Shown here in pieces: positions 1 to 20,081 of a DNA stretch of 22,405 nt. Position 1 is the first letter of the stretch. Each line of letters opens with the position of its first letter. The translations under genes were made by a program, and so were the position numbers. The notes under the pieces are model-generated. The model made no database searches. It was not told where the DNA came from and saw only the letters and a program-made list of their open reading frames with translations. The DNA is from a virus: positions 1 to 22,405 of the IMG/VR virus record IMGVR_UViG_3300005537_000068. One strand, 5' to 3'.

Positions 1-119
1 TTCGGCGCAACACGCGGCTTGAATGCCCAGAACCACTCTCGGACCGCGGCGGCAATTTCCGCCCCGGTGACGGTGAATGCGCTACTCGTCTCCGGAGGCG
101 TCGGAGGCGTCTTCCTCAT
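1..119 (-). CDS. Terminase large subunit, N-terminal part (runs off the left edge)
   Basis: The ATG at 119-117 opens a frame that stays open to the window edge and gives 39 residues. After a Pro/Thr-rich start, the segment AAAVREWFWAFKPR resembles the N-terminus of GpA-type terminase large subunits, the ATPase/nuclease that packages DNA into the prohead. The start overlaps the end of the small subunit gene by 38 bp in another frame, which is the usual small-then-large terminase order. Only the N-terminus is present, so the Walker and nuclease motifs cannot be checked. The call rests on position and on this short similarity. Confidence 0.7.
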   Translation of the reverse strand, partial: MRKTPPTPPETSSAFTVTGAEIAAAVREWFWAFKPRVAP

Positions 120-582
120 CCATGCCCCCGCCTATGGCCGCCTCGACCCGCGTCACGCTGAGCTCCTCGAGCGCGTCGTTAATCGCGAGCTCGATCCGTT
201 CGCGGAGCTTGTTGTCGCCCTTGGCCACCAAGGCGGCCACTTGGGAGAGCCGCGTGACAGCGAGGGCAATCACCCCGATGACCGCGCCGGTCATGTTGGG
301 CAGCGAAGCGAGCTCCTTGCGGCGCTCGGCATTGTCCATGGCCTTGGAGTCCGCCTGCTCCTTCGCGAGACGGGCCTGCTCCTGTTCCTTGTCGAGGCGT
401 TCGTCTCCATCCTCGCCGGACTTCGGCAAGTGACGAGCGACCCAAGCCTCGATGTTCTCCTGCATCGATGCGCCGTCGGCCGGCATCTCGCCTTTGGCGC
501 GGAGCTCGCCCACCCACCGGCTGGTGATTCCGAGCACTGCGGCGATTTGCGGCCGAGTGGGCTCGTTGATGTCGATTTCCAT
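82..582 (-). CDS. Terminase small subunit (Nu1-like)
   Basis: The product has 166 residues. The N-terminus (about residues 8-40: PTRPQIAAVLGITSRWVGEL) looks like the winged helix-turn-helix of lambda Nu1-type small terminases, which recognise cos DNA and recruit the large subunit. The middle (about 50-90) is a charged Glu/Lys/Arg helix that probably oligomerises, followed by a hydrophobic helix with Arg/Glu. The C-terminus is acidic (DEEDASDASGDE), a plausible contact with the large subunit. The ATG at 582 is preceded by AGGGA at suitable spacing. The large subunit gene starts inside its 3' end. Family assignment is from fold features and context, not from a search. Confidence 0.75.
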   Translation of the reverse strand: MEIDINEPTRPQIAAVLGITSRWVGELRAKGEMPADGASMQENIEAWVARHLPKSGEDGDERLDKEQEQARLAKEQADSKAMDNAERRKELASLPNMTGAVIGVIALAVTRLSQVAALVAKGDNKLRERIELAINDALEELSVTRVEAAIGGGMDEEDASDASGDE

Positions 583-1021: not shown

Positions 1022-1281
1022 CGGCGCGGCTCGTAGCTGGCGCTGCTACCGCCACGGGGCGGCGCAGACATCGGCACTTCACCCCGTTCGATGTACCGCT
1101 TGCACGTCGCCCATCGCCTCGCGAGCCGGATCCATTCACGGTGCGAGACAGTGCGCCCTGATTTGTCGATGCGCTTGAGATCGGCGAGGAGCGCGAGCAT
1201 CGGCGCCGACGGATCGATCGGTCGTGGTTGGTAGCCCATCGACTGCCGGCGCGTCGGCGGCGGTCGGTCGCTAGTTACCAC
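1018..1281 (-). CDS. Conserved-looking small phage protein, 87 aa
   Basis: I do not recognise the family. The protein is basic and Pro/Arg-rich at both ends, with a central helical part (about residues 28-66, APMLALLADLKRIDKSGRTV and the WIRLARRWATCKRYIERGE region) that could bind nucleic acid or a protein. The GTG start at 1281 overlaps the 3' end of the preceding gene by 11 bp. An ATG 14 codons later is the alternative start. Its TGA overlaps the next ATG. The coupling on both sides makes it likely to be real. Confidence 0.6.
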   Translation of the reverse strand: MVTSDRPPPTRRQSMGYQPRPIDPSAPMLALLADLKRIDKSGRTVSHREWIRLARRWATCKRYIERGEVPMSAPPRGGSSASYEPRR

Positions 1282-1432
1282 GGCCTATCAGCCTATTGAG
1301 ACCGCGCAGTGCTTCATCCTTGGCGTGGTAGCTACGCTCCGGGTCGCGACCGCCTGGGATGATGTCGCGCACTTCCTGACGGATCTCGATCAGCTTGGCG
1401 ACAACGACGGCGGGAAGCTGCGCAGTGGACAT
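1271..1432 (-). CDS. Small hypothetical protein, 53 aa
   Basis: The ATG at 1432 is preceded by a good Shine-Dalgarno sequence (GGGAGG, about 6 bases upstream), which lies between the tRNA 3' end and this start. The product is a compact helical protein (AQLPAVVVAKLIEIRQEVRD followed by GRDPERSYHAKDEALRGLNR) with no membrane segment or recognisable motif. It overlaps the start of the next gene. It probably belongs to one transcript with the tRNA and the Acb2/Tad1-like gene. Function unknown. Confidence 0.65.
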   Translation of the reverse strand: MSTAQLPAVVVAKLIEIRQEVRDIIPGGRDPERSYHAKDEALRGLNRLIGRGN

Positions 1433-1448: not shown

Positions 1449-1525
1449 TGGTTGCGGGGACAGGATTCGAACCTGCGACCTTCGCGTTATGAGCGCGACG
1501 AGCTACCGAGCTGCTCTACCCCACG
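1449..1525 (-). tRNA. tRNA-Met(CAT), initiator (fMet) type, phage-encoded
   Basis: A full 77-nt cloverleaf including an encoded CCA (3' end at 1449). The anticodon CAT is at 1491-1489. Initiator hallmarks are present: a C1 x A72 mismatch at the top of the acceptor stem, the A11:U24 pair in the D stem, and an overall sequence very like bacterial tRNA-fMet. The anticodon stem is TCGCG/CGCGA, so positions 29-31 pair as G:C, C:G, G:C instead of the canonical three G:C pairs with G on the 5' side. Position 3-70 is a U-G wobble. The gene starts 10 nt after the Acb2/Tad1-like stop, and the Shine-Dalgarno sequence of the next gene follows at once, so it is probably processed from a late mRNA. Confidence 0.92.
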
Positions 1526-1535
1526 ATGAATCGGT

Positions 1536-1766
1536 TCAGGCGGTGACGTGCTTCACCGACCAGAAGACAGCTTCCTCGACCTTGGTCTTGGCCAGCGACA
1601 GTTCGCGGCTGGAACCGATTTTCTCAATCTCGGCGAGGAATGCCGCGCCAGCATCCTTGAGGGCAAGCATCTGCGCTTTCTCGGCATCACCAAGCACGCG
1701 GTATTGGTGACGAACAGCGTTGTTCGCAGTCCGATCGTCGGACGCGCTGTTGATCTGGTCGGCCAT
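1536..1766 (-). CDS. Acb2/Tad1 hairpin-domain protein, candidate anti-CBASS/anti-Thoeris sponge
   Basis: The product has 76 residues. The core, from HQYRVLGDAEKAQML through a helix to GSSRELSLAKTKVEEAVFW and ending VKHVTA, matches the pattern I know for the Acb2/Tad1 hairpin domain: two antiparallel helices with a conserved SRELSLA-K-EEA-W stretch. Known members bind cyclic nucleotides or ADP-ribose-derived signals and so block CBASS or Thoeris. Which ligand this one binds cannot be read from the sequence. A longer in-frame extension upstream is Pro/Arg-rich and crosses a terminator. I chose the ATG at 1766 because GGGAG lies 7-11 bases upstream. It heads the transcript that includes the tRNA. 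Confidence 0.75.
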   Translation of the reverse strand: MADQINSASDDRTANNAVRHQYRVLGDAEKAQMLALKDAGAAFLAEIEKIGSSRELSLAKTKVEEAVFWSVKHVTA

Positions 1767-3367: not shown

Positions 3368-3637
3368 ATGGAAATCGAATTCGACAGCGCCAAGGACGAG
3401 GCCAACACCGCGAAGCATGGCGTCTCGCTCGCATTCGGTGCCCGCGTTTTCGATGACACCATGCACATCGTTCTGACGTCCATCCGCCCGGTAGACGGCG
3501 AGGATCGGTTCAAGGCGATTGGCATGGTGGAGGGCCGCCTTTGGACCGCCATCCACGTGTTGCGCGGCTCTCGTGTCCGGTTCATCTCGGTAAGGAAAAG
3601 CAATGACGGCGAAGAGCGCATCTACCATCGGCCTTAG
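3368..3637 (+). CDS. brnT: BrnT family toxin
   Basis: The product has 89 residues and matches the BrnT pattern: IEFDSAKDEANTAKHGVSL near the start (the F-x-D-x-x-K-x-x-x-N-x-x-KHG motif), VFDDTMHIV, R...IGMVEGRLWTAIHVL, and the C-terminal VRFISVRKS...E..IYHRP with the conserved Arg and Lys-Ser. BrnT is a RelE-like ribonuclease of type II toxin-antitoxin systems that blocks translation when free. All the motifs I recall are present, so it is probably active. The antitoxin gene overlaps its 3' end by 35 bp. As a phage-borne module it may stabilise the element or act against other phages. Confidence 0.92.
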   Translation: MEIEFDSAKDEANTAKHGVSLAFGARVFDDTMHIVLTSIRPVDGEDRFKAIGMVEGRLWTAIHVLRGSRVRFISVRKSNDGEERIYHRP

Positions 3638-3860
3638 CGCCGACCCGCACGACCCCGACGACTTCGATGTCAGCGAGGCTGAGATCGAACGCGCGCTAGC
3701 CGTGCGTCGTAAGCGGGGCCGCCCATCCGGCTCGCATAAGGAGCAGGTGACGCTGCGCGTTGACAGCGAGGTGCTCGATTACTTCAAGCACGCGGGGCCA
3801 GGCTGGCAGACTAGGATGAACGCGGTGCTGCGCAAGGCGATGGAAGAGACCGCGCGTTAG
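3603..3860 (+). CDS. brnA: BrnA family antitoxin
   Basis: The product has 85 residues. The acidic N-terminal half (DPHDPDDFDVSEAEIERAL) probably wraps the toxin. The C-terminal half (GRPSGSHKEQVTLRVDSEVL, then YFKHAGPGWQTRMNAVLRKAM) is the ribbon-helix-helix domain typical of BrnA, with the GPGWQTRMN signature. It neutralises BrnT and is expected to bind the palindrome at 3350-3359. The ATG at 3603 lies inside brnT. Its TAG overlaps the TAA of the convergent gene as TTAG, so there is no room for a bidirectional terminator here. Confidence 0.92.
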   Translation: MTAKSASTIGLSADPHDPDDFDVSEAEIERALAVRRKRGRPSGSHKEQVTLRVDSEVLDYFKHAGPGWQTRMNAVLRKAMEETAR

Positions 3861-4435: not shown

Positions 4436-5129
4436 TCCGATTTCCGTTTTCGCGAGGATCGTAAATTCCAGCCCAGCCGCGCTCAGCGGCATGTTGCAGG
4501 ATCCGGCCGGGCGGCCACTCCTCGTCGGCTAGCCGCGCGATGTCGCTCAGCAGCCGGGCGTGGGCCGTCGCGGTGTTCGGAAGCTTCTTGCGCTTCCGGT
4601 TGGCGAGGAAGTCTGCCCAGTGCTGGGGATCTGCGAAATCGGGCCGAGGGAACGGGTCGGCATGCGGGGTTTGGGCTCGCTGTACCGAAGAAGCTTTAGC
4701 TTCTGAGGTATTCTTTACTTCTTTCCCTTCTTTCTTCTTTGCGTCGCCGCCGCGTCGTTGCTGCGTCGCGTCTGCGTCGTCACCTGCGTCGGGCGATCCA
4801 CCGGGCGTCTGGTAAACCTCGTAATTTCTAATGGTTATGACCGTCTGGCCTGCGTCGGTTGATGCGTCGATTATTTGCGACTTCACTAACGACGAAAGAA
4901 ACCGACGCACCTTCGCTTCGTCCCATTTCCAGGCCTTCGCCATGAACCGGAGCGAGTGCGAAAGCTGGCCGCGTTCGAGCATGATTTCGCCCGTGCCGGC
5001 ATGGATTTTGGTCGGGCGGAACGCGGCTTCCTCGATCAGCCAGACAAAGGCGTCGCGGCGCGAAAACTCTTCGTTCCGGAACACGGCATTGTCCTGCCAG
5101 CCGCGATGCATCAGGTAGAAGCCACTCAC
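4320..5129 (-). CDS. Phage replication initiator (O-like, winged helix)
   Basis: The product has 269 residues. Residues 1-105 match the N-terminal winged-helix domain common in phage replication proteins: FYLMHRGWQDNAVF, RRDAFVWLIEEAAF, GEIMLERGQLSHSLRFMA, WKWDEAKVRRFLSSL, and TVITIRNYEVYQ. A low-complexity linker follows (about 108-150, Asp/Ala/Gln then Lys/Glu-rich), then a C-terminal helical domain (about 165-230) that would contact a helicase or loader. The linker DNA carries the repeat array and AT-rich tract described separately, as in the lambda O gene. The GTG start overlaps the ThiF-like stop as GTGA. Confidence 0.75.
   Translation of the reverse strand: MSGFYLMHRGWQDNAVFRNEEFSRRDAFVWLIEEAAFRPTKIHAGTGEIMLERGQLSHSLRFMAKAWKWDEAKVRRFLSSLVKSQIIDASTDAGQTVITIRNYEVYQTPGGSPDAGDDADATQQRRGGDAKKKEGKEVKNTSEAKASSVQRAQTPHADPFPRPDFADPQHWADFLANRKRKKLPNTATAHARLLSDIARLADEEWPPGRILQHAAERGWAGIYDPRENGNRNGQRPHHEPQQGEFGNPMAAAAARSLARSDRGRELPLD
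4689..4869. other. Candidate replication origin: direct repeats plus AT/pyrimidine tract inside the initiator gene
   Basis: GCGTCG occurs at 4741, 4752, 4763, 4774 and 4786, a spacing of 11, 11, 11 and 12 bp (about one helical turn). Two more copies lie at 4852 and 4864. The repeats abut 4711-4740, 30 nt with a single purine on the plus strand and 70% A+T, in a GC-rich region. Next to that is a 16-bp inverted repeat (4689-4704, GAAGCT-TT-AGCTTC core). On the coding strand the order is repeats, then purine-rich tract, as in lambda ori within gene O. The function is inferred from layout. Confidence 0.6.
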
Positions 5130-5905
5130 GCTGGTACCCCGGTCAACAGATTAGGTGAGATCGGTTTGGGCAGCGCGATCGGAATGACCTGCCCGCTCTT
5201 CAGATTGACGAATCCGCCGGCGTTACCAATCGAGCCGCGCCCCAGCAGGTCGAACAGCAGCGCAAGCGCATGGCTCGCGACAACGCGGTTCACGAACAGC
5301 GATTGACGCTCTAGCGCCTCGGCCACCGAGCACGATGGGGTATCGTCCTCAGCCACCGTCGCATCGGCTAGTTCGGGGAAATGCTCGAGCACGGTCGGGA
5401 GCCGGTCGCACTTCGTGCCAGCCGCTGCGCTAGGGCAACCGATCACGAACTGCCCGTCAGTCGCACGGTTGCCTAGGTCGAGCCAGTAATGCGGCGATGG
5501 TCGGCCCTCGGGCATTTGATCACCCAGCGCGCGTCGGGCCGCCGCGGTGTCGACGCAGGTGATGAGGATGTCGATGCCATCGAGCCCGATCGCGGCTGGT
5601 GCACGGCCATGCACCGCCCGCCAGTTCAAGCCATGCGCGAGGTTGATACGCTCGGTCAGCGTGTGCGCCTTCGAGTTGCCGAGGTCGCAGCGATAGAAGG
5701 GCTGGCGGCCCAGGTTCGCCTCGGTAACGATATCGTCGTCCACCACGGTGACGTGGAGCGACCGCGACGAGATCGCGCGTAGCGCGGTATCGAGCGACGC
5801 AAGGCCCATCAGCATCTGCGCGCCATTGCCGCCGCAGCCGACGAGCATGACGTCCAGTGTGCGGTTCTCCAGCGTCGCAGGGAGATAGTGGCGGTTAGGC
5901 TGCAT
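5126..5905 (-). CDS. PRTRC system ThiF family protein (E1-like)
   Basis: The product has 259 residues. The E1/ThiF nucleotide-binding loop is at 21-28 (LVGCGGNG), followed by VVDDD (54-58), EANLGRQPF (62-70, the conserved Arg and Gln), the SKA element (78-80) and CVD (117-119). The segment TPSCSVAEALERQSLFVN (189-206) carries a candidate catalytic Cys192. E1-like enzymes adenylate the C-terminus of a ubiquitin-like protein. Here the likely substrate is the small protein C of the same cassette. The usual zinc CxxC pairs are not evident. The start overlaps the protein A gene by 11 bp. Confidence 0.9.
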   Translation of the reverse strand: MQPNRHYLPATLENRTLDVMLVGCGGNGAQMLMGLASLDTALRAISSRSLHVTVVDDDIVTEANLGRQPFYRCDLGNSKAHTLTERINLAHGLNWRAVHGRAPAAIGLDGIDILITCVDTAAARRALGDQMPEGRPSPHYWLDLGNRATDGQFVIGCPSAAAGTKCDRLPTVLEHFPELADATVAEDDTPSCSVAEALERQSLFVNRVVASHALALLFDLLGRGSIGNAGGFVNLKSGQVIPIALPKPISPNLLTGVPA

Positions 5906-6557
5906 TGGATTCTCCGGCGAACGGGCTGCGCGGCATCGGGAGGAACATGCCTGCCGCGCAGATGCGCGAGGCCATTACCGGGCCCTCCGAATCGTCGAGC
6001 CGACCGATCACGAGCGCGATCTTTGTGGCGTGAGCGTCGTCGGCGTCGTCGGTGGCGCTGAAGAAGGCCGAGCCGCGCCCGTGGCTGTGTATGTCGCAGA
6101 TCAGGTGCCAGCCGTGCGGGAGGGCCGGCATGCGATAGACCAGCCGAGACGGGGTGGCGGCATCGATGGCGGGGAATTCTACCCCGAACTCGCCGGTCTC
6201 TTCGCACCAGATAATGAACGCGGCTGCCTCGTTAGGGAGCGCGGCCCGGAAGTGATCTAGTATCCGCTCCAGGTGCTCACGTGGGATCAAGCCGCAGCGC
6301 AGGTCGGCCTTGGGCGCGCCCGCGCTTCCGTAGGGCAGGTATGCGACGATCGGCGAGCTGACGGGGACGTCAAGCGCGAGCCACGGCCGCCGCAGGACGA
6401 GCATCACCACGTCCTGGCCTATCGCGAGGCCGTGGCCGGCGCGAGCGGCGCGGAGCGCGTCGATTGCGGGCGACATGCCGCTGGGCGGGACTGGGTAGCA
6501 GGGCATCGTCGCGAGCACCGCAGCAGCAGTCGGATCGGCAGCAAGCACGGCGGTCAT
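5895..6557 (-). CDS. PRTRC system protein A (JAB/JAMM metallopeptidase)
   Basis: The product has 220 residues. The JAMM zinc motif is complete: H157-S-H159, seven residues, S167, two residues, D170 (read as HSHG...FSATD). A candidate catalytic Glu lies in WCEETGE near residue 119 or 120. JAB-domain enzymes cleave after the C-terminal glycine of ubiquitin-like proteins, either maturing or removing them. The neighbouring ThiF-like protein and protein C fit as partners. The start is fixed by an ATGA overlap with the protein B stop. The metal-binding residues are intact, so an active enzyme is expected. Confidence 0.9.
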   Translation of the reverse strand: MTAVLAADPTAAAVLATMPCYPVPPSGMSPAIDALRAARAGHGLAIGQDVVMLVLRRPWLALDVPVSSPIVAYLPYGSAGAPKADLRCGLIPREHLERILDHFRAALPNEAAAFIIWCEETGEFGVEFPAIDAATPSRLVYRMPALPHGWHLICDIHSHGRGSAFFSATDDADDAHATKIALVIGRLDDSEGPVMASRICAAGMFLPMPRSPFAGESNAA

Positions 6558-7363
6558 CGCGCAGCCCTCCCGACGAGCTTACCGAGCGTGATCGGCTCGA
6601 CCGCGTTCCGGCGCACGTTGGGATCGAACGGCTTGAGGCGCTTTACCGGAAACCGCTTCGCGCCCTTCGCCGCGAGCTCGTCCCACAGCCGCACGAGGCC
6701 GCCCTTACCGCTGACGGTCAATTCCTGGCCCGGATTCGGATGCGTCGACCAGCTATCGAACACCGCGCGCTCGTATGCGGGAATGGACGCGACCGTCAGC
6801 GCCTTCGGCTGGGCGATGTTGCCCCAGCAGAGCGCGCCGTCGATGAAGACGTTCAAGACGGGCGAGTGCAGCAGAGGCGTCGCTGCGGTCGGTCGTTGGT
6901 TTTCCCGGAGCGCATAGACGCCGAGCCCGCGCCGCGTCGCAATGAACAGGTGGGCGGGATAGGGAAGAGGCAGCGTCGTTCGCTCGGTCAGCACCTTGAG
7001 GCCAGCTGGGGGCCGCGACAGCGCGAAATAGGAGGGACGTACCTTCTCCGGCACCCACCATGCGAGCATGTCGGGATGCGACACCAGCACATTGCCGGGC
7101 AGGATTTCCGGGGCGACGTTGCGCCCCAGCGCCTCGTTCCATTGGCGCAGGTGCGCGCGCGTCAACGGCACGCCGGCGGCAATCGTCGGCTGGCCGTCGT
7201 TGTGCTCGACCTTGTGCATGCTGGCGAACGCCGCACCGGCCGCCTGCTGCGGGCTGTAGGCGCCGCCTTTCTCAGGCTGATAGAGCAGGATGGCATTGGT
7301 CAGCACAAGGCCGCCGGCCGTAGGTTCGAACTGGGTGGAATGATTGGCCATGGGAGTGCTCAC
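6554..7363 (-). CDS. PRTRC system protein B (possible E2-like)
   Basis: The product has 269 residues from the GTG that overlaps the protein F stop as GTGA. An ATG four codons in is the alternative start. The pattern fits PRTRC protein B: AILLYQPEKGG near 25-34, the LVSHPDMLAWWVPEKVRPSYF region, LPYPAHLFIA, LGVYAL, and NVFIDGALCWGN with Cys179, which I find to be the only cysteine in the protein. I recall a proposal that this family is E2-like. A single cysteine in that strand would suit a conjugating role, but this has not been shown, to my knowledge. Confidence 0.85.
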   Translation of the reverse strand: MSTPMANHSTQFEPTAGGLVLTNAILLYQPEKGGAYSPQQAAGAAFASMHKVEHNDGQPTIAAGVPLTRAHLRQWNEALGRNVAPEILPGNVLVSHPDMLAWWVPEKVRPSYFALSRPPAGLKVLTERTTLPLPYPAHLFIATRRGLGVYALRENQRPTAATPLLHSPVLNVFIDGALCWGNIAQPKALTVASIPAYERAVFDSWSTHPNPGQELTVSGKGGLVRLWDELAAKGAKRFPVKRLKPFDPNVRRNAVEPITLGKLVGRAAR

Positions 7364-8487
7364 GGTTTGACAGGATCGGTATCGATCAGGTCCTGGGCGG
7401 CGAGCAGGAGTTCGACGCCAAGCTTTAGGGAAGTGAACCAGCGCTCGACCTTGTCCGCGTCAGACAACAGACATAGTCCCACGATGTCCATGAAGCGGGT
7501 TTCCATGCCGTGACGCCCGACTTCATCGAGCTCCCGCGCGAAATGATCGAACGGAACCAGCGTCAGCGGTGGCAGCGTCGAACAATCCTCGTAATCGGAC
7601 ACGTATGCGCCGATTTCTTCGAAATCGAAGTGCCATGCGTTGCCGTCAGGCTTGAGGCTGGTAATGGCCTTATGCGCTGCGCGCAGCCTGCAAATCCGAT
7701 CGCGGAGGCCTGCTGGGAGGGCCTTTAGGGGCCCGGCGTTGGTTGCGATCATCCAAGCCGGCCGCCGCGCATTTATAGCTGACGGCAGCATCTCTTCATC
7801 GATCTCGTTGGGGTCAGTGCCGTGCCACTCAAGCATGGCCTTCACCGCAGCCGCGTCGTCGGTTTCACCTTCCCAATAATATGCTGCGATATGCTCGAAG
7901 AGATCATCGTACCCGAATATTGGAAGCACGGACTTCAGCGTCTCCCCAAGGGCTTTGTACGCGGTCGCCCGCCATTTGACCGGCGGGACCGCACCGACCA
8001 GCGTTTGCGAAAGCACATTGCTCTTCTCGATCCAGCCGAGTTCCAGAGACCCGATGCTGTCGCAGATCAACGCGAGCGCCGGCGGGAGGATATCATCGCC
8101 GACCAGCGGCACGACGCGGAGGTCGGCGAGCTGGAGCGGCGCCAGGATTTCCAGCACCGCCGCATCGAACACCCGCTCGATCTGTCGGCGAGCCTCCGTG
8201 CGCGTTTTCCGTCGCACGGACGTTTCGCGCATTGCCACCCAGCGGCCGATCACCTTGTGGTGTGGCGCGAGCGGCGCGTCGAAGACGACGGGCACGTCCG
8301 GCGACAGCCGGACGGCCCGCCCGGCCAGATCAACCGAGCGGCGCGAGGCGGAGACCACGGGGCGGCTGAAGCGGCTCGTGCCTGCCGCTGCCGCGCTCGT
8401 CGGGCGTGGCGACAATGCGCGCATGGAGGGCTTGAGCCTGCGCGGTGCACGCGGGCTGGGTTGAGCGGGGAGCGTCGCTATCATCAT
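7360..8487 (-). CDS. PRTRC system protein F
   Basis: The product has 375 residues if the ATG at 8487 is right. The body from about residue 60 on (VVFDAPLAPHHKVIGRWVAM, the REQIERVFDAAVLEILAP-like region, WEGETDDAAAVKAMLEWHG, and the PSAINARRPAWM segment) fits protein F of PRTRC cassettes by position and pattern. No biochemical role is known to me. The first 50 or so residues are Pro/Arg/Ser-rich and poorly convincing. A second frame (from the ATG at 8512, MTLLEWIEHDDDSDAP) covers the same DNA, so the true N-terminus is uncertain. It lies between proteins C and B. Confidence 0.75.
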   Translation of the reverse strand: MMIATLPAQPSPRAPRRLKPSMRALSPRPTSAAAAGTSRFSRPVVSASRRSVDLAGRAVRLSPDVPVVFDAPLAPHHKVIGRWVAMRETSVRRKTRTEARRQIERVFDAAVLEILAPLQLADLRVVPLVGDDILPPALALICDSIGSLELGWIEKSNVLSQTLVGAVPPVKWRATAYKALGETLKSVLPIFGYDDLFEHIAAYYWEGETDDAAAVKAMLEWHGTDPNEIDEEMLPSAINARRPAWMIATNAGPLKALPAGLRDRICRLRAAHKAITSLKPDGNAWHFDFEEIGAYVSDYEDCSTLPPLTLVPFDHFARELDEVGRHGMETRFMDIVGLCLLSDADKVERWFTSLKLGVELLLAAQDLIDTDPVKP

Positions 8488-8559
8488 CGTGCTCGATCCA
8501 TTCGAGGAGAGTCATGCGGTGGGCGGCCGGTATCGCCGTGGTGGTGCCGCGCGCCACGG

Positions 8560-8766
8560 TCAGCCCTTGGTGCCGACCGCGCGTCGGTACTCGGTGACGT
8601 GGACATCCCCGGAGACGCCGGCGTCGACCATCTCGGCGTTGAGGATCGCGGGGTATAGCGTCGCATGATAGGCGCGCAGGCCCTGCGGATCGTCGGCAAG
8701 GTGTGGCGGGGCCGGAAGGTCGATGCCGTCGTAGCGATAGACGCGCGTCAGATGATTGATTTGCAT
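8560..8766 (-). CDS. PRTRC system protein C (ubiquitin-like)
   Basis: The product has 68 residues. It begins MQINHLTRVYRYDGIDLPAP, has the Leu/Tyr pattern of a small beta-grasp fold, and ends RRAVGTKG, the C-terminus I associate with this family. I recall that protein C has been proposed as a ubiquitin-like member, with the conserved Gly tail as the site activated by the ThiF-like enzyme and cut by the JAB protein. The tail ends in a single Gly, not Gly-Gly. It contains no cysteine. It follows protein E by 42 bp. Confidence 0.85.
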   Translation of the reverse strand: MQINHLTRVYRYDGIDLPAPPHLADDPQGLRAYHATLYPAILNAEMVDAGVSGDVHVTEYRRAVGTKG

Positions 8767-8808
8767 TGGGGCCTCTCGGCTAAGGGTGGTGGGGGCAGGT
8801 GGCGCGCC

Positions 8809-9216
8809 TCACCAAAGGCTGGCGGGCTCGCCGGCCTTGGCGGCCGTTGACGAGGCGGGTGTCGGCGGCGCGGCTGTCGCCTTGGGGGCATCGGCCGCGG
8901 GCTTTTTCTTGGAAGCCGTCTCGGTCTTCGCCGCCTCGGCCGCCTCGCGCTGTTCCGCGATCTGGTCACCGAGCGACTTGCGCGCGATGATGAGCTGACC
9001 GAGCGCACCGTCCTCGCCCTTCGCAAGCTCGGCATCGATCTCGGCCGCACTCGCGGTGATCGAGATCGGTCGCATCTCGCCGCCTTCGGGGGTGTGCTTT
9101 GCCCCGGCGGCCTTGCGCGGGATGATGGTCAGCGTGACCGTTTCGTCGGGCGCGGCGACCAGATCGAAGCCGAGCGAATAGCGTGAGAGCAGCGGGAGCA
9201 GGCTGGTGATCAACAT
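8809..9216 (-). CDS. PRTRC system protein E
   Basis: The product has 135 residues from the ATG at 9216 (MLITSLLPLLSRYSLGFDLV). The N-terminal half (about 1-85) holds DETVTLTIIPRK, the PISITASAAEIDAEL segment and a helix to EQREAAEA, consistent with protein E of the cassette. The C-terminal 45 residues are low complexity (Ala/Pro/Lys/Thr). A longer open frame upstream runs inside the ParB gene and is a shadow. It starts 5 bp after the ParB stop, so the two are surely co-translated. Molecular function unknown. Confidence 0.8.
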   Translation of the reverse strand: MLITSLLPLLSRYSLGFDLVAAPDETVTLTIIPRKAAGAKHTPEGGEMRPISITASAAEIDAELAKGEDGALGQLIIARKSLGDQIAEQREAAEAAKTETASKKKPAADAPKATAAPPTPASSTAAKAGEPASLW

Positions 9217-9221
9217 CGGAA

Positions 9222-10520
9222 TCAGTCCTTGTCCGAGGTGGCGGGGGACGACGCGGCTTCGGCAGGCGGCCCGTACTTCCCATCGATGGTCATCGCGCTC
9301 GGCAGGCGGCCGGCCCAACTGAACCCGGTCGCGTTCAGCATCCCCGCGACGATCTTGTCGTTCGGAGCAGCGAGCAGCTTGGCGAACGCCTTCTCGCCCA
9401 TGTGCTTGACCAGGCCGCATTCGTGGGCGATGAATTTGAGCTCGTCCTTGCCGAAGCGCGACAGGAAGGTTCGATCGACCTGCCAGGTATCGCGCAGCAC
9501 CGCCTCAAACGCGCGCGCGATCTCGGGATCGCCCTCCGCCGCCTGAATAAGCGCGCCGCGCCACGCCGCCTCGCGGAGATCGGTGACATGCTTGGCGACC
9601 GACGCAGTGGTGACGCTCGGCTTTGACGCCGCGGGCGCGCCGCGCGCGGGCTTGGCCTCCGGCTTCGATGGCGCAGCAGCTGCCGAAGGCGCGGGCGTGG
9701 TCGCCTTGGCGGGCGCCGGCTCATCGGCGCCTGCTGGCGGCGAGGATTTCTCCATTGCCTCGGTCTTCAGCTGGAAGCAGCCCGGGTTGGTGCAGTGCCC
9801 GTCATCGACATGGGTCTCGAAAAGCGCGCGCTGCGAACCCGAGTTGAACGGGCACGTCGTGCATTCCGTCTTATCGAACACAGCAGCCGCGAGGCTCTGC
9901 GTCACACGCATGAGAAGCTCGCGCGTTTTAGCGACGTCCAGGCCAGCGCTCAGAATTGTCTCGAGGGCCTTGTCCTGCTTGTCGGCAGGAACGACCGCGA
10001 GCAGCTCAGCGTGACCGACCTTGACGCGTCGCTCGTTGAGCGCGGTCTTTACCGTCTCCGAGAGATCTGCGAGCGCGAGCCTGCGGTCCAGCTTGGAGGC
10101 CGACCAGCCGAGGCGACGGGCGGCCTCCGCGCGATCGCTCTGGCATGCGGCGAGGACGCGGAGCGCGGCGTCTGCCTGCTCGGTTTCCGAAGCATCTTCG
10201 CGAATATCGTTCTCGTCGATCGCGGCTTCCAGCGCTTCCTGGTCGGTCATCTCGCGGATGACGACCGGCACTTCACCTTCGGGACCGAACACTTCCAGCG
10301 CAGCTTTGTACCGACGCTCCCCGGCGACGATAACGAACTGGGCGTCGTCATCGCCTGAAGGGCGGAGCAACAGCGGCTGCAGCAGCCCGCGCAGACGGAT
10401 CGAGGTCGCAAGCTCGCCATGCTTTAGCTGGTCGAAATACCGACGCGGATTGTCCCCTGGCCGGATCTTTGAGAGTGGCAGCATGGCTGGCGCTGCGGAG
10501 CCGGATATGTGACCGTGCAT
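9222..10520 (-). CDS. PRTRC system ParB family protein
   Basis: The product has 432 residues from the ATG at 10520. The ParB/Srx nucleotide-binding domain is at about 12-110: NPRR (24-27), GLLQPLLLRP, the GERR box (67-70) and ENDIRED (103-109). A helix-turn-helix follows at about 130-153 (AEAARRLGWSASKLDRRL). Next is a cysteine cluster C220, C223, C243, C248, probably a zinc site. A low-complexity Pro/Ala linker and a C-terminal domain (about 320-432) complete it. ParB proteins bind centromere-like DNA and hydrolyse CTP. No ParA-like gene is in the window. The start overlaps the previous stop as TGATG. Confidence 0.92.
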   Translation of the reverse strand: MHGHISGSAAPAMLPLSKIRPGDNPRRYFDQLKHGELATSIRLRGLLQPLLLRPSGDDDAQFVIVAGERRYKAALEVFGPEGEVPVVIREMTDQEALEAAIDENDIREDASETEQADAALRVLAACQSDRAEAARRLGWSASKLDRRLALADLSETVKTALNERRVKVGHAELLAVVPADKQDKALETILSAGLDVAKTRELLMRVTQSLAAAVFDKTECTTCPFNSGSQRALFETHVDDGHCTNPGCFQLKTEAMEKSSPPAGADEPAPAKATTPAPSAAAAPSKPEAKPARGAPAASKPSVTTASVAKHVTDLREAAWRGALIQAAEGDPEIARAFEAVLRDTWQVDRTFLSRFGKDELKFIAHECGLVKHMGEKAFAKLLAAPNDKIVAGMLNATGFSWAGRLPSAMTIDGKYGPPAEAASSPATSDKD

Positions 10521-10723
10521 CAGGAAGCCCTTCGGTTGATCAGCGCGTCGCGCTGGTAGGTTTCGTGGATTCGGGTGGGCCAGCCCTTGGCCGTCCGGCA
10601 GCTGCGCTCGGCGCGACCGGCCCGACGAGCCTCGAGGGCTTCTTCCTGCTTCTTGGCGAGCTGGATCACCCGATAGTGATGGGCGCGGCGCTCTAGCCAG
10701 CGCTGGCTGAAGGCGCCGATCAT
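10520..10723 (-). CDS. Small basic protein, 67 aa
   Basis: Not recognised. It is a charged helical protein (FSQRWLERRAHHYRVIQLAK, then KQEEALEARRAGRAERSC) with net positive charge, so it may bind nucleic acid. Both ends are coupled: its ATG overlaps the upstream stop as ATGA, and its TGA overlaps the ParB ATG as TGATG. It directly precedes ParB and may be expressed in step with it. Confidence 0.65.
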   Translation of the reverse strand: MIGAFSQRWLERRAHHYRVIQLAKKQEEALEARRAGRAERSCRTAKGWPTRIHETYQRDALINRRAS

Positions 10724-11511
10724 GCTGGCACCGCACGTTTTGTGGCCGCGGCAAAAGCCTCGAAGGCCTCGCGATCGCCGTTACAGCAGGTCCACTTGAT
10801 TTTGCGCTTCCGGCTGACTGCTTTGCCGCGCTCCCACTGGGTCTCAGTGTCCATCCGGAGAGCTGCCGCCCCGATGGCCTGGCCGGGAAACGAGAACGAC
10901 ACGATCGCCTGCTCGACGATCAGCTGCCCCAGCCGATTGCGCGTCACATAGACGTGCGGCCGAAGATACTCTTTGTGCTCAATGACGGATCCAGGGAGGC
11001 GCCGGAGAATGACACGTTCGAAGCGGGCGATAGCCCGGTCCCCGAAGCGCTTTCTCGCGGCCTGCTCCTTGTCGTGCGCGTTCTTGCAGCTCTGGCGGCA
11101 GAATACCGTCCCGTGCTGCGAGCCGATCACATGATCAGGCTTCCAGCGCGCATAACGCAGGTTAGCGCCGTTGAGGGGTTCGTCTGCGCCGACCTCATTT
11201 TCCCAAGCGAGCGGCAGGTCATGATCGATCCGACGGCCGCAGCCGGTGCACTCGAAGTGCCACCCGGCATATATCATTGCCGATACGGGGATGATGCCGT
11301 CCGCCGCGAACTGGTCCGCCCACGGCGCTCGACGACACTCCACACCGTGGAAATCTCCGTCGCCAAATTGGCAAGCGCCCTCTCGGCGAGCGACGACATT
11401 GTGCCGAGCGAAGACGATGCCGCCGGTACCCTCGCAGGTCTCGGTCACGGCATACGCGCGCAACGGCTTGCTCGCCTTATCCGAGGCGAGAACGGTACCG
11501 GCGGCGCTCAT
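10720..11511 (-). CDS. Zinc-ribbon-like phage protein, 263 aa, unknown function
   Basis: From the ATG at 11511. The N-terminal part (about 18-62: RAYAVTETCEGTGGIVFARH, then C47 and C59) and the central FECTGCGRR (86-94) with VFCRQSCKNAHDKEQAARKR about 55 residues later look like a zinc-binding site of the Cys2-Cys2 type. A basic region and a beta-rich C-terminal part follow (HVYVTRNRLGQLIVEQAIV). Proteins of this kind occur in alphaproteobacterial phages without an assigned role. DNA binding or nuclease activity is possible, but no catalytic motif is clear. Coupled to both neighbours (TGATG upstream, ATGA downstream). Confidence 0.7.
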   Translation of the reverse strand: MSAAGTVLASDKASKPLRAYAVTETCEGTGGIVFARHNVVARREGACQFGDGDFHGVECRRAPWADQFAADGIIPVSAMIYAGWHFECTGCGRRIDHDLPLAWENEVGADEPLNGANLRYARWKPDHVIGSQHGTVFCRQSCKNAHDKEQAARKRFGDRAIARFERVILRRLPGSVIEHKEYLRPHVYVTRNRLGQLIVEQAIVSFSFPGQAIGAAALRMDTETQWERGKAVSRKRKIKWTCCNGDREAFEAFAAATKRAVPA

Positions 11512-19177: not shown

Positions 19178-19473
19178 TGGGGCAGCGTGCGCAGGCTAGC
19201 TCGCATCCCGGCTCGGTGCTCAAGACGGGATCGTTTCGCGGGCGAATCTGCATCATGTTCTATTTCTGTTCTCTCAAAGCCTACATGTCTAGGATATTTC
19301 CTAGTGCCCTCCGCTTCGCCTAATCTCTTCCCCGAAGAGGGCTTGAACCGGCCGCCGCCCACCGGTCTCAAGGCTGAAAGTTATTGAAATATTGACATTA
19401 GGGCGAGCAGAAACGAAGCCATGCTAGCAGATCGCGCTAGCTTGATAGCGCTGATAGCGGATTGTGCTGGCAC
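19178..19473. promoter_or_regulatory. Non-coding leader of the HicAB operon with palindrome and direct repeats
   Basis: No convincing gene; the sequence is more AT-rich after 19250. CTAGGA-TATT-TCCTAG (19289-19304) is a perfect 6-bp inverted repeat. TTGACA (19392-19397) could be a -35, but no good -10 follows at standard spacing. GCTAGC occurs at 19423 and 19436. TGATAGCG is directly repeated at 19443 and 19452 just before hicA. The latter are candidate HicB operators. Confidence 0.45.
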
Positions 19474-19728
19474 ATGGATGAACTAGAGCGAGAAACGCTT
19501 GTGGCCATCTTTCAGGAACCGGTGCCAACGACCATCGAATGGGAGGCTATCGAGGATCTGTTCGAGGCGATCGGTTGCGCCGTGGTTGACGACGACGGTG
19601 AGCGCATCACGTTCGAGTTGCGCGGCGCGATTGGCAGCTTTGAGAGGCCACCGATCCGGCAAATGGCGCGGCGCTACACCGTGCTGGCGGCTCGGGATTA
19701 CCTGACGAGGCTTGGAGTCACGCCATGA
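19474..19728 (+). CDS. hicA: HicA-like toxin, probably inactive (no histidine)
   Basis: The product has 84 residues from the ATG at 19474. It follows the long-form HicA pattern: RETLVAIFQEPVPTTIEWEA near the start, IEDLFEAIGCAVVDDDGERI in the middle, and YTVLAARDYLTRLGVTP at the end. HicA toxins are small RNases with a double-stranded-RNA-binding-like fold. In this subfamily I expect a conserved F-H-R-P-H-P motif; here it reads FERPPI, and the whole protein has no histidine. The catalytic function is therefore doubtful. Its TGA overlaps the antitoxin ATG as ATGA. Confidence 0.8.
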   Translation: MDELERETLVAIFQEPVPTTIEWEAIEDLFEAIGCAVVDDDGERITFELRGAIGSFERPPIRQMARRYTVLAARDYLTRLGVTP

Positions 19729-20081
19729 GCGCGATCACTTACAAGGGCCACTATGCCACGATCGAGTTCGATCCGGAGGACATGATCCTCACAGGGCGGC
19801 TGGCCGGGATAGACGACATCGTGACGTTCCACGCTGAAAGCGGGGCAGGCATCGTGAAGGCCTTCCGCGAAGCCGTCGATTCGTATCTTCGAACGTGCAA
19901 GCGGCTCGGTAAGGATCCAGAGCGGCCATACTCCGGTCGGCTGTTCGTGCGAGTGGATCCGTCTCTGCATGCCCAGGTCGTACGTGCCGCAGAGCTTTCC
20001 GGAATGAGCTTCAACGAGTGGGGTGGGGAAGTGCTGCGTCGCGCTGCATTGGACGTGCACGAAAACGCCGTCAGCGTCTGA
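19725..20081 (+). CDS. hicB: HicB-like antitoxin
   Basis: The product has 118 residues. The N-terminal half (ITYKGHYATIEFDPEDMILT, then GRLAGIDDIVTFHAES and FREAVDSYL) is the partially degraded RNase H-like HicB fold that caps HicA. The C-terminal half (YSGRLFVRVDPSLHAQVVRA, then ELSGMSFNEWGGEVLRRAA) is a ribbon-helix-helix DNA-binding domain. All typical features are present, so it can probably still act as an operon repressor even if the toxin is dead. The end lies 25 bp from the next operator. Confidence 0.92.
   Translation: MSAITYKGHYATIEFDPEDMILTGRLAGIDDIVTFHAESGAGIVKAFREAVDSYLRTCKRLGKDPERPYSGRLFVRVDPSLHAQVVRAAELSGMSFNEWGGEVLRRAALDVHENAVSV

Follow-up and report, generated by a model that had tools for sequence, protein, structure and literature searches.

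The ribosome is held to check the initiator tRNA at three G:C pairs of its anticodon stem, above all the middle one. These pairs are described as highly conserved across all domains (PMC7949028). In E. coli tRNA-fMet, the exchange of G30:C40 for C30:G40 is known as the M1 mutation, which is reported to weaken the A-minor interactions made by 16S A1339 and G1338 and to reduce initiation in vivo 20-fold (PMC11497404), in line with an earlier reading of the present locus (the original prediction), which had named the middle pair as important for initiation in E. coli. When the host initiator is depleted or its genes are removed, stem mutants do start translation in E. coli (PMC7949028). The anticodon arm is also cut by nucleases: VapC toxins, including one from the alphaproteobacterium Bosea, cleave tRNA-fMet at the anticodon stem-loop (PMC8522696), and AriB of the PARIS system cleaves other tRNAs, its reported targets excluding fMet, between positions 40 and 41 and is evaded by phage tRNA variants (PMC12409363). 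Nuclease-evasion changes in phage tRNAs usually lie in the anticodon loop, and tRNA-fMet is generally missing from the tRNAs that phages carry where it is a VapC target (PMC10264068).

Phage-encoded tRNAs are of a known kind; what is new at the locus described here is a naturally inverted 30:40 stem pair, and no paper found in the open-licence PMC literature describes natural C30:G40 phage initiators. We favor, at a probability of roughly 40%, the reading that the tRNA is a functional accessory initiator, carried by the phage to make up for a depleted or cut host tRNA-fMet pool, in agreement with one option of the original prediction, the replacement of a cleaved host tRNA.

The tRNA gene and its surroundings

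The DNA analyzed, referred to as the window, is a 22,405-base stretch of an IMG/VR virus record. Its sole tRNA, identified by ARAGORN as tRNA-Met(cat), occupies positions 1449–1525 on the minus strand and comprises 77 nt including the encoded CCA. Scoring with a tRNA model, as the original prediction suggested, gave 59.9 bits for Rfam tRNA (RF00005), over the gathering score of 29, and the cloverleaf is the minimum-energy fold. As the record contains a terminase small subunit and phage replication genes, the tRNA counts as phage-encoded. On the minus strand the gene reads CGUGGGG UA GAGC AGCUCGGUA GCUC G UCGCG CUCAUAA CGCGA AGGUC GCAGG UUCGAAU CCUGU CCCCGCA A CCA. At the acceptor end, C1 (position 1525) does not pair with A72 (1453), the initiator hallmark for formylation, and is followed by G2:C71 and U3.G70, with A73 and CCA at the 3′ terminus; the D stem carries A11:U24, so that both proposed initiator hallmarks, C1xA72 and A11:U24, are present. 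The tRNA therefore shares with bacterial tRNA-fMet an unpaired 1:72 position next to G2:C71, a purine 11:pyrimidine 24 pair and the CAU anticodon (1489–1491) within the loop CUCAUAA. The anticodon stem consists of U27:A43, C28:G42, G29:C41, C30:G40 and G31:C39, where G29, C30 and G31 correspond to positions 1496, 1495 and 1494 (1494–1496), and C39, G40 and C41 to 1486, 1485 and 1484 (1484–1486), all on the minus strand. The triplet at 29–31/39–41 is G:C, C:G, G:C with the middle pair inverted, exactly as first read, in place of the three identically oriented G:C pairs of bacterial tRNA-fMet. Because 30:40 is C:G, we use the term initiator-type tRNA rather than canonical tRNA-fMet.

The gene lies in a compact same-strand run. 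The stop codon of an acb2-like gene (1536–1766, minus strand), belonging to the anti-CBASS cyclic-nucleotide sponge family (Pfam PF24729 Acb2_Tad1_hairpin, E = 1.7e-15; relatives 91% identical in amino acid sequence), is located 10 nt upstream of the tRNA; an ORF of 53 amino acids (1271–1432, minus strand) begins 16 nt downstream of it, and the terminase small subunit (82–582, minus strand; phrog_57, E = 5e-12) lies downstream in the same direction. This arrangement is consistent with co-transcription; a promoter and terminator scan found nothing, including no upstream match to a promoter (sigma70-consensus promoters only). Judged from sequence, the tRNA is an optional passenger of the run, because in the three loci with a 91% identical Acb2 (L002–L004) a different sequence takes its place, with a small ORF likewise downstream of acb2. 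We also considered an obligate pairing of acb2 with the tRNA and rejected it, given the acb2 relatives without the tRNA and the lack of acb2 in any of the flipped loci examined. A search for relatives with a 528-amino-acid phage protein returned only two contigs, both distant.

Elsewhere, this phage-like contig carries a near-complete PRTRC cassette (ThiF, A/JAB, B/E2, C, E and ParB, with a weak F; 5126–10754, minus strand), and among INPHARED phages a nearly full-length match to its ThiF was found only in Burkholderia phage BgVeeders33. Two toxin-antitoxin-like modules lie on the plus strand, BrnT/BrnA at 3368–3860 and a HicA-like toxin with HicB at 19462–20081.

The presence of repressor-like genes and of a single tRNA in the window raises the question of tRNA-dependent lysogeny, in which a phage inserts itself into the tRNA-fMet gene of its host, does not restore that gene and brings a substitute along; temperate actinophages are known to use this mechanism for single tRNAs (PMC10865867). 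The scanned proteins of the 22.4-kb fragment included no integrase, and the tRNA adjoins acb2 and the terminase rather than an attP-integrase region. The tRNAs known to be used in this way are those for Lys, Ile2 and Leu; a substitute for the initiator, which is essential, should initiate well; and the presence of ParB and PRTRC genes points to possible maintenance outside the chromosome. Together, these observations make this explanation improbable.

The anticodon stem in bacterial genomes and in phages

The host is likely a member of the Sphingomonadales, because the 19 plasmid matches to the window's PRTRC F-like protein are without exception from Sphingomonads (19/19); scanning genomes with the DnaN of the window yielded relatives of only 30–34% identity and did not pinpoint it further. 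In the order sample, 119 of 199 genomes matched the initiator pattern, and nearly all of the matches listed have A29 G30 G31 / C39 C40 U41, with a few TGG-type or irregular copies and no C30:G40 among them. When 3 mismatches were allowed, one of 25 genomes without a match gained one; the non-matching genomes are likely explained by rRNA-operon copies missing from drafts. Matches were obtained for 54 of 96 genomes in the class sample, almost all AGG, and for 77 of 100 in the phylum sample, where AGG or GGG prevailed and GGC was rare. The alphaproteobacterial baseline is therefore A29:U41, G30:C40, G31:C39, which lacks the full G:C set and retains G30:C40, and the window tRNA departs from its likely host group at 29:41 as well as at 30:40. 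The suggestion of a one-pair flip thus held for the inversion of 30:40 itself, but relative to a host with A29:U41 two pairs differ, not one.

Neither the 385 alphaproteobacterial genomes searched nor the 299 from Pseudomonadota yielded a C30:G40 initiator, in a cellular census that covers Pseudomonadota only and uses genome sets that overlap slightly. The possibility that the host's own fMet genes share the flipped stem, raised together with the original prediction as grounds for abandoning it, is thereby rejected for the sampled genomes of the probable host group. One alphaproteobacterial genome (G216, contig 34) has an initiator-like tRNA with an A30xC40 mismatch, which may be a sequencing error.

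In viral contigs, a general initiator pattern gave at least 120 listed tRNAs; the pattern fixes GCUC at 22–25, the loop and AGGUC, and misses other initiators. The most frequent triplets among the 120 listed are A:U G:C G:C (45), all G:C (26) and U:A G:C G:C (22), with others fewer. Of these 120, 115 have G:C at the middle pair, 5 (about 4%) have C:G and none has A:U, and the outer pairs 29:41 and 31:39 vary widely (A:U, U:A, G:C, C:G). Initiator-type tRNAs are thus common in phages (L153–L272), relaxed at the outer pairs and with G30:C40 in most of those listed. Comparing the 5 of 120 listed phage tRNAs with 0 of roughly 446 genomes, a scaled estimate of those with a detectable initiator, gives a Fisher P = 0.0004; with the 131 genomes directly seen, P = 0.02.

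A full IMG/VR scan for C30:G40 initiator-type tRNAs identified 103 contigs with 85 distinct sequences, and the flip that the original prediction proposed to look for in related phages therefore recurs, several times beside phage structural genes. The triplets are A:U C:G G:C in 53, G:C C:G G:C, identical to that of the window, in 29, and G:C C:G C:G in 9; 29:41 and 31:39 are paired in all of these tRNAs, although the pattern left pairing free. A further full scan, for tRNAs with A or T at both 30 and 40, gave 15 candidates, 13 of them tRNA-like, and all 13 have U30xU40 mismatches (L408, L413, L414, L416–L424 and L426); A:U or U:A was never seen. Genes near flipped tRNAs encode TerL (L064, L067, L072), a major head protein (L069) and a portal (L070, L320), while a family search on ten neighboring proteins left 4 of 10 without a match. 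Initiator-type tRNAs in general often adjoin terminase genes (L064, L067, L072, L428, which is phiLM21, L430 and L439). Named phages contain no near match to L064, C30:G40 is absent from nine initiator-type tRNAs read from named phages (0/9), and no laboratory isolate with the flip was identified. The identifiers of L064, L067, L320 and L340 differ in form from metagenome identifiers, and these four may derive from isolate genomes. Across phage initiator-type tRNAs, 71% have a mismatch at 1:72, another 21% have U:A there, and A73 is kept in about 90%; initiator identity is therefore retained. At the level of sequence, C30:G40 is a real, phage-specific variant, recurrent in phages and unseen in the sampled bacterial genomes.

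Origin of the flip and its possible function

A tree of 220 tRNAs was built with positions 29–31 and 39–41 omitted, leaving 68 columns and low resolution. On the best tree the flip changes 51 times, at least 8 of which are forced by well-supported branches, indicating that it arose repeatedly, with many origins among phages. By tree path, the nearest rows to the window tRNA are L067 and L064, both flipped, which have U3, A9 and G57 in common with it and differ at position 72, in the D-loop and in the T stem. Once the stem is masked, the best identity is 93%, to a sphingomonad fMet gene (L275), from which the complete tRNA departs at 9 positions (88% identity).

These 9 differences are the argument for a host-derived copy in decay. 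Four of them, at 29, 30, 40 and 41, make up two fully compensated pairs, and none breaks a stem pair, an outcome that 9 random substitutions reach in 0.5% of simulations (P = 0.005). The differences also cluster in the three stem pairs (P = 0.0013 by base, 0.04 by event), a modest concentration. With stem pairing intact, CCA and the invariant positions retained and the flip carried by L064 and L067 too, decay, which the original prediction had listed as an option, is very improbable. Nor do the data fit a recent host copy with random changes in each phage, as the observed changes compensate one another and are found again in further phages.

The main rival to an accessory initiator is relaxed selection, according to which the tRNA is a dispensable but functional copy whose stem pairs drift among paired states, because the host supplies good initiators, and C30:G40 is neutral or slightly harmful. 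The wide variation at 29:41 and 31:39, with all three G:C pairs in only 26 of the 120 listed phage tRNAs, the rarity of C30:G40 (5 of 120) and the near relatives that lack the tRNA are as expected on this account. Free drift is harder to reconcile with the constraint on the middle pair, for which the listed tRNAs offer 115 G:C, 5 C:G and no A:U, and with the A/T scan, which yielded U30xU40 mismatches only. The retention of 1:72 weakness and A73, the nearly always intact pairing and the sharing of the flip with L064 and L067, which diverge from the window tRNA elsewhere, point in the same direction. We regard relaxed selection as a possible explanation, somewhat less probable than an accessory initiator.

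Another suggestion was that the tRNA biases initiation toward phage mRNAs with GTG starts. This runs counter to the behavior of the matching M1 tRNA, the stability of which on GUG and UUG is reportedly down about 10-fold, with no improvement on CUG (PMC11497404); as C30:G40 weakens GUG and UUG complexes, GTG starts would be served worse. A broader version, with initiation altered toward phage messages or relaxed start codons, could draw on the lowered discrimination against CUG and more elongator-like codon recognition conferred by C30:G40 in E. coli (PMC11497404), but that effect stems from weaker GUG/UUG binding rather than better CUG use, and an excess of non-AUG starts was not demonstrated in the window. 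We consider it unlikely to be correct.

For the preferred reading, an accessory initiator, we infer a mechanism extending from expression, charging and formylation to the trigger and the nuclease. The tRNA would probably be co-transcribed with the anti-CBASS gene acb2 in one operon and then processed. Given the retained C1xA72, G2:C71, A11:U24 and A73, it would be charged with Met and formylated, and it could supply initiation once infection-triggered anticodon-arm tRNases cut or deplete host tRNA-fMet. The changes at 29:41 and 30:40 leave the three-pair stem fully G:C and may alter its readout by an anticodon-arm nuclease or by the 30S head; two adjacent changed pairs could escape nuclease recognition, and the loss of the A1339/G1338 grip would be tolerated when the normal initiator is scarce, since stem mutants then initiate, so that the cost would be minor under depletion. 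We know of no host nuclease acting on the window tRNA. This reading is favored by the intact initiator features, the compensated stem, the recurrence in phages and absence in cells, the phage structural genes near flipped tRNAs and the position of the tRNA 10 nt after acb2, as well as by the existence of arm-cutting tRNases (PMC8522696, PMC12409363) and the rescue of stem mutants by depletion (PMC7949028). It is weakened by the lack of any change in the anticodon loop, where evasion changes usually fall (PMC10264068), the poor initiation by M1 in E. coli, the lack of an upstream promoter match in the sigma70-consensus scan, and the close acb2 relatives without the tRNA together with flipped loci without acb2.

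More generally, phage initiators represent a natural mutational scan of the stem, in which variation is free at the outer pairs, 96% of about 120 listed tRNAs have G:C in the middle, and the sole paired alternative at 30:40 in the listed tRNAs is the exact M1 inversion. Tentatively, phages may repeatedly evolve an initiator whose stem is orthogonal to that of the host, sustaining initiation after destruction of the host initiator or resetting start-site selection, and C30:G40 might then be a naturally selected equivalent of a mutation that is considered crippling. The natural flip makes testable the strictness of the rule in ribosomes other than those of E. coli, evasion of stem-directed tRNases and the idea of a second, phage initiator.

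Comparison with described systems

The closest counterpart, M1, has the same 30:40 inversion, flanked by G:C at both 29:41 and 31:39, as well as C1xA72 and the CAU anticodon. M1 is, however, man-made in E. coli, whereas the window tRNA is natural and phage-borne, additionally has U3.G70, A9 and G57, and probably faces an alphaproteobacterial host with an A:U, G:C, G:C stem. Like the proposed nuclease-escape tRNAs of other phages (PMC10264068), it departs from the host tRNA in the anticodon arm; there the changes affect the loop, while the window tRNA has an altered stem and an unchanged loop. The temperate phages with tRNA-dependent lysogeny (PMC10865867) likewise have a single tRNA gene, but of other isotypes, and integrate at the cognate host gene, whereas no integrase was seen among the scanned proteins of the window. 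The Sinorhizobium phiLM21-like prophages (PMC12429752) resemble it as temperate alphaproteobacterial phages with one initiator-type tRNA, given as tRNA-Met or tRNA-fMet, near terminase genes; they differ in having a normal G30:C40, with TGG/CCA in phiLM21 itself, and an analysis of the stem was not found in PMC12429752.
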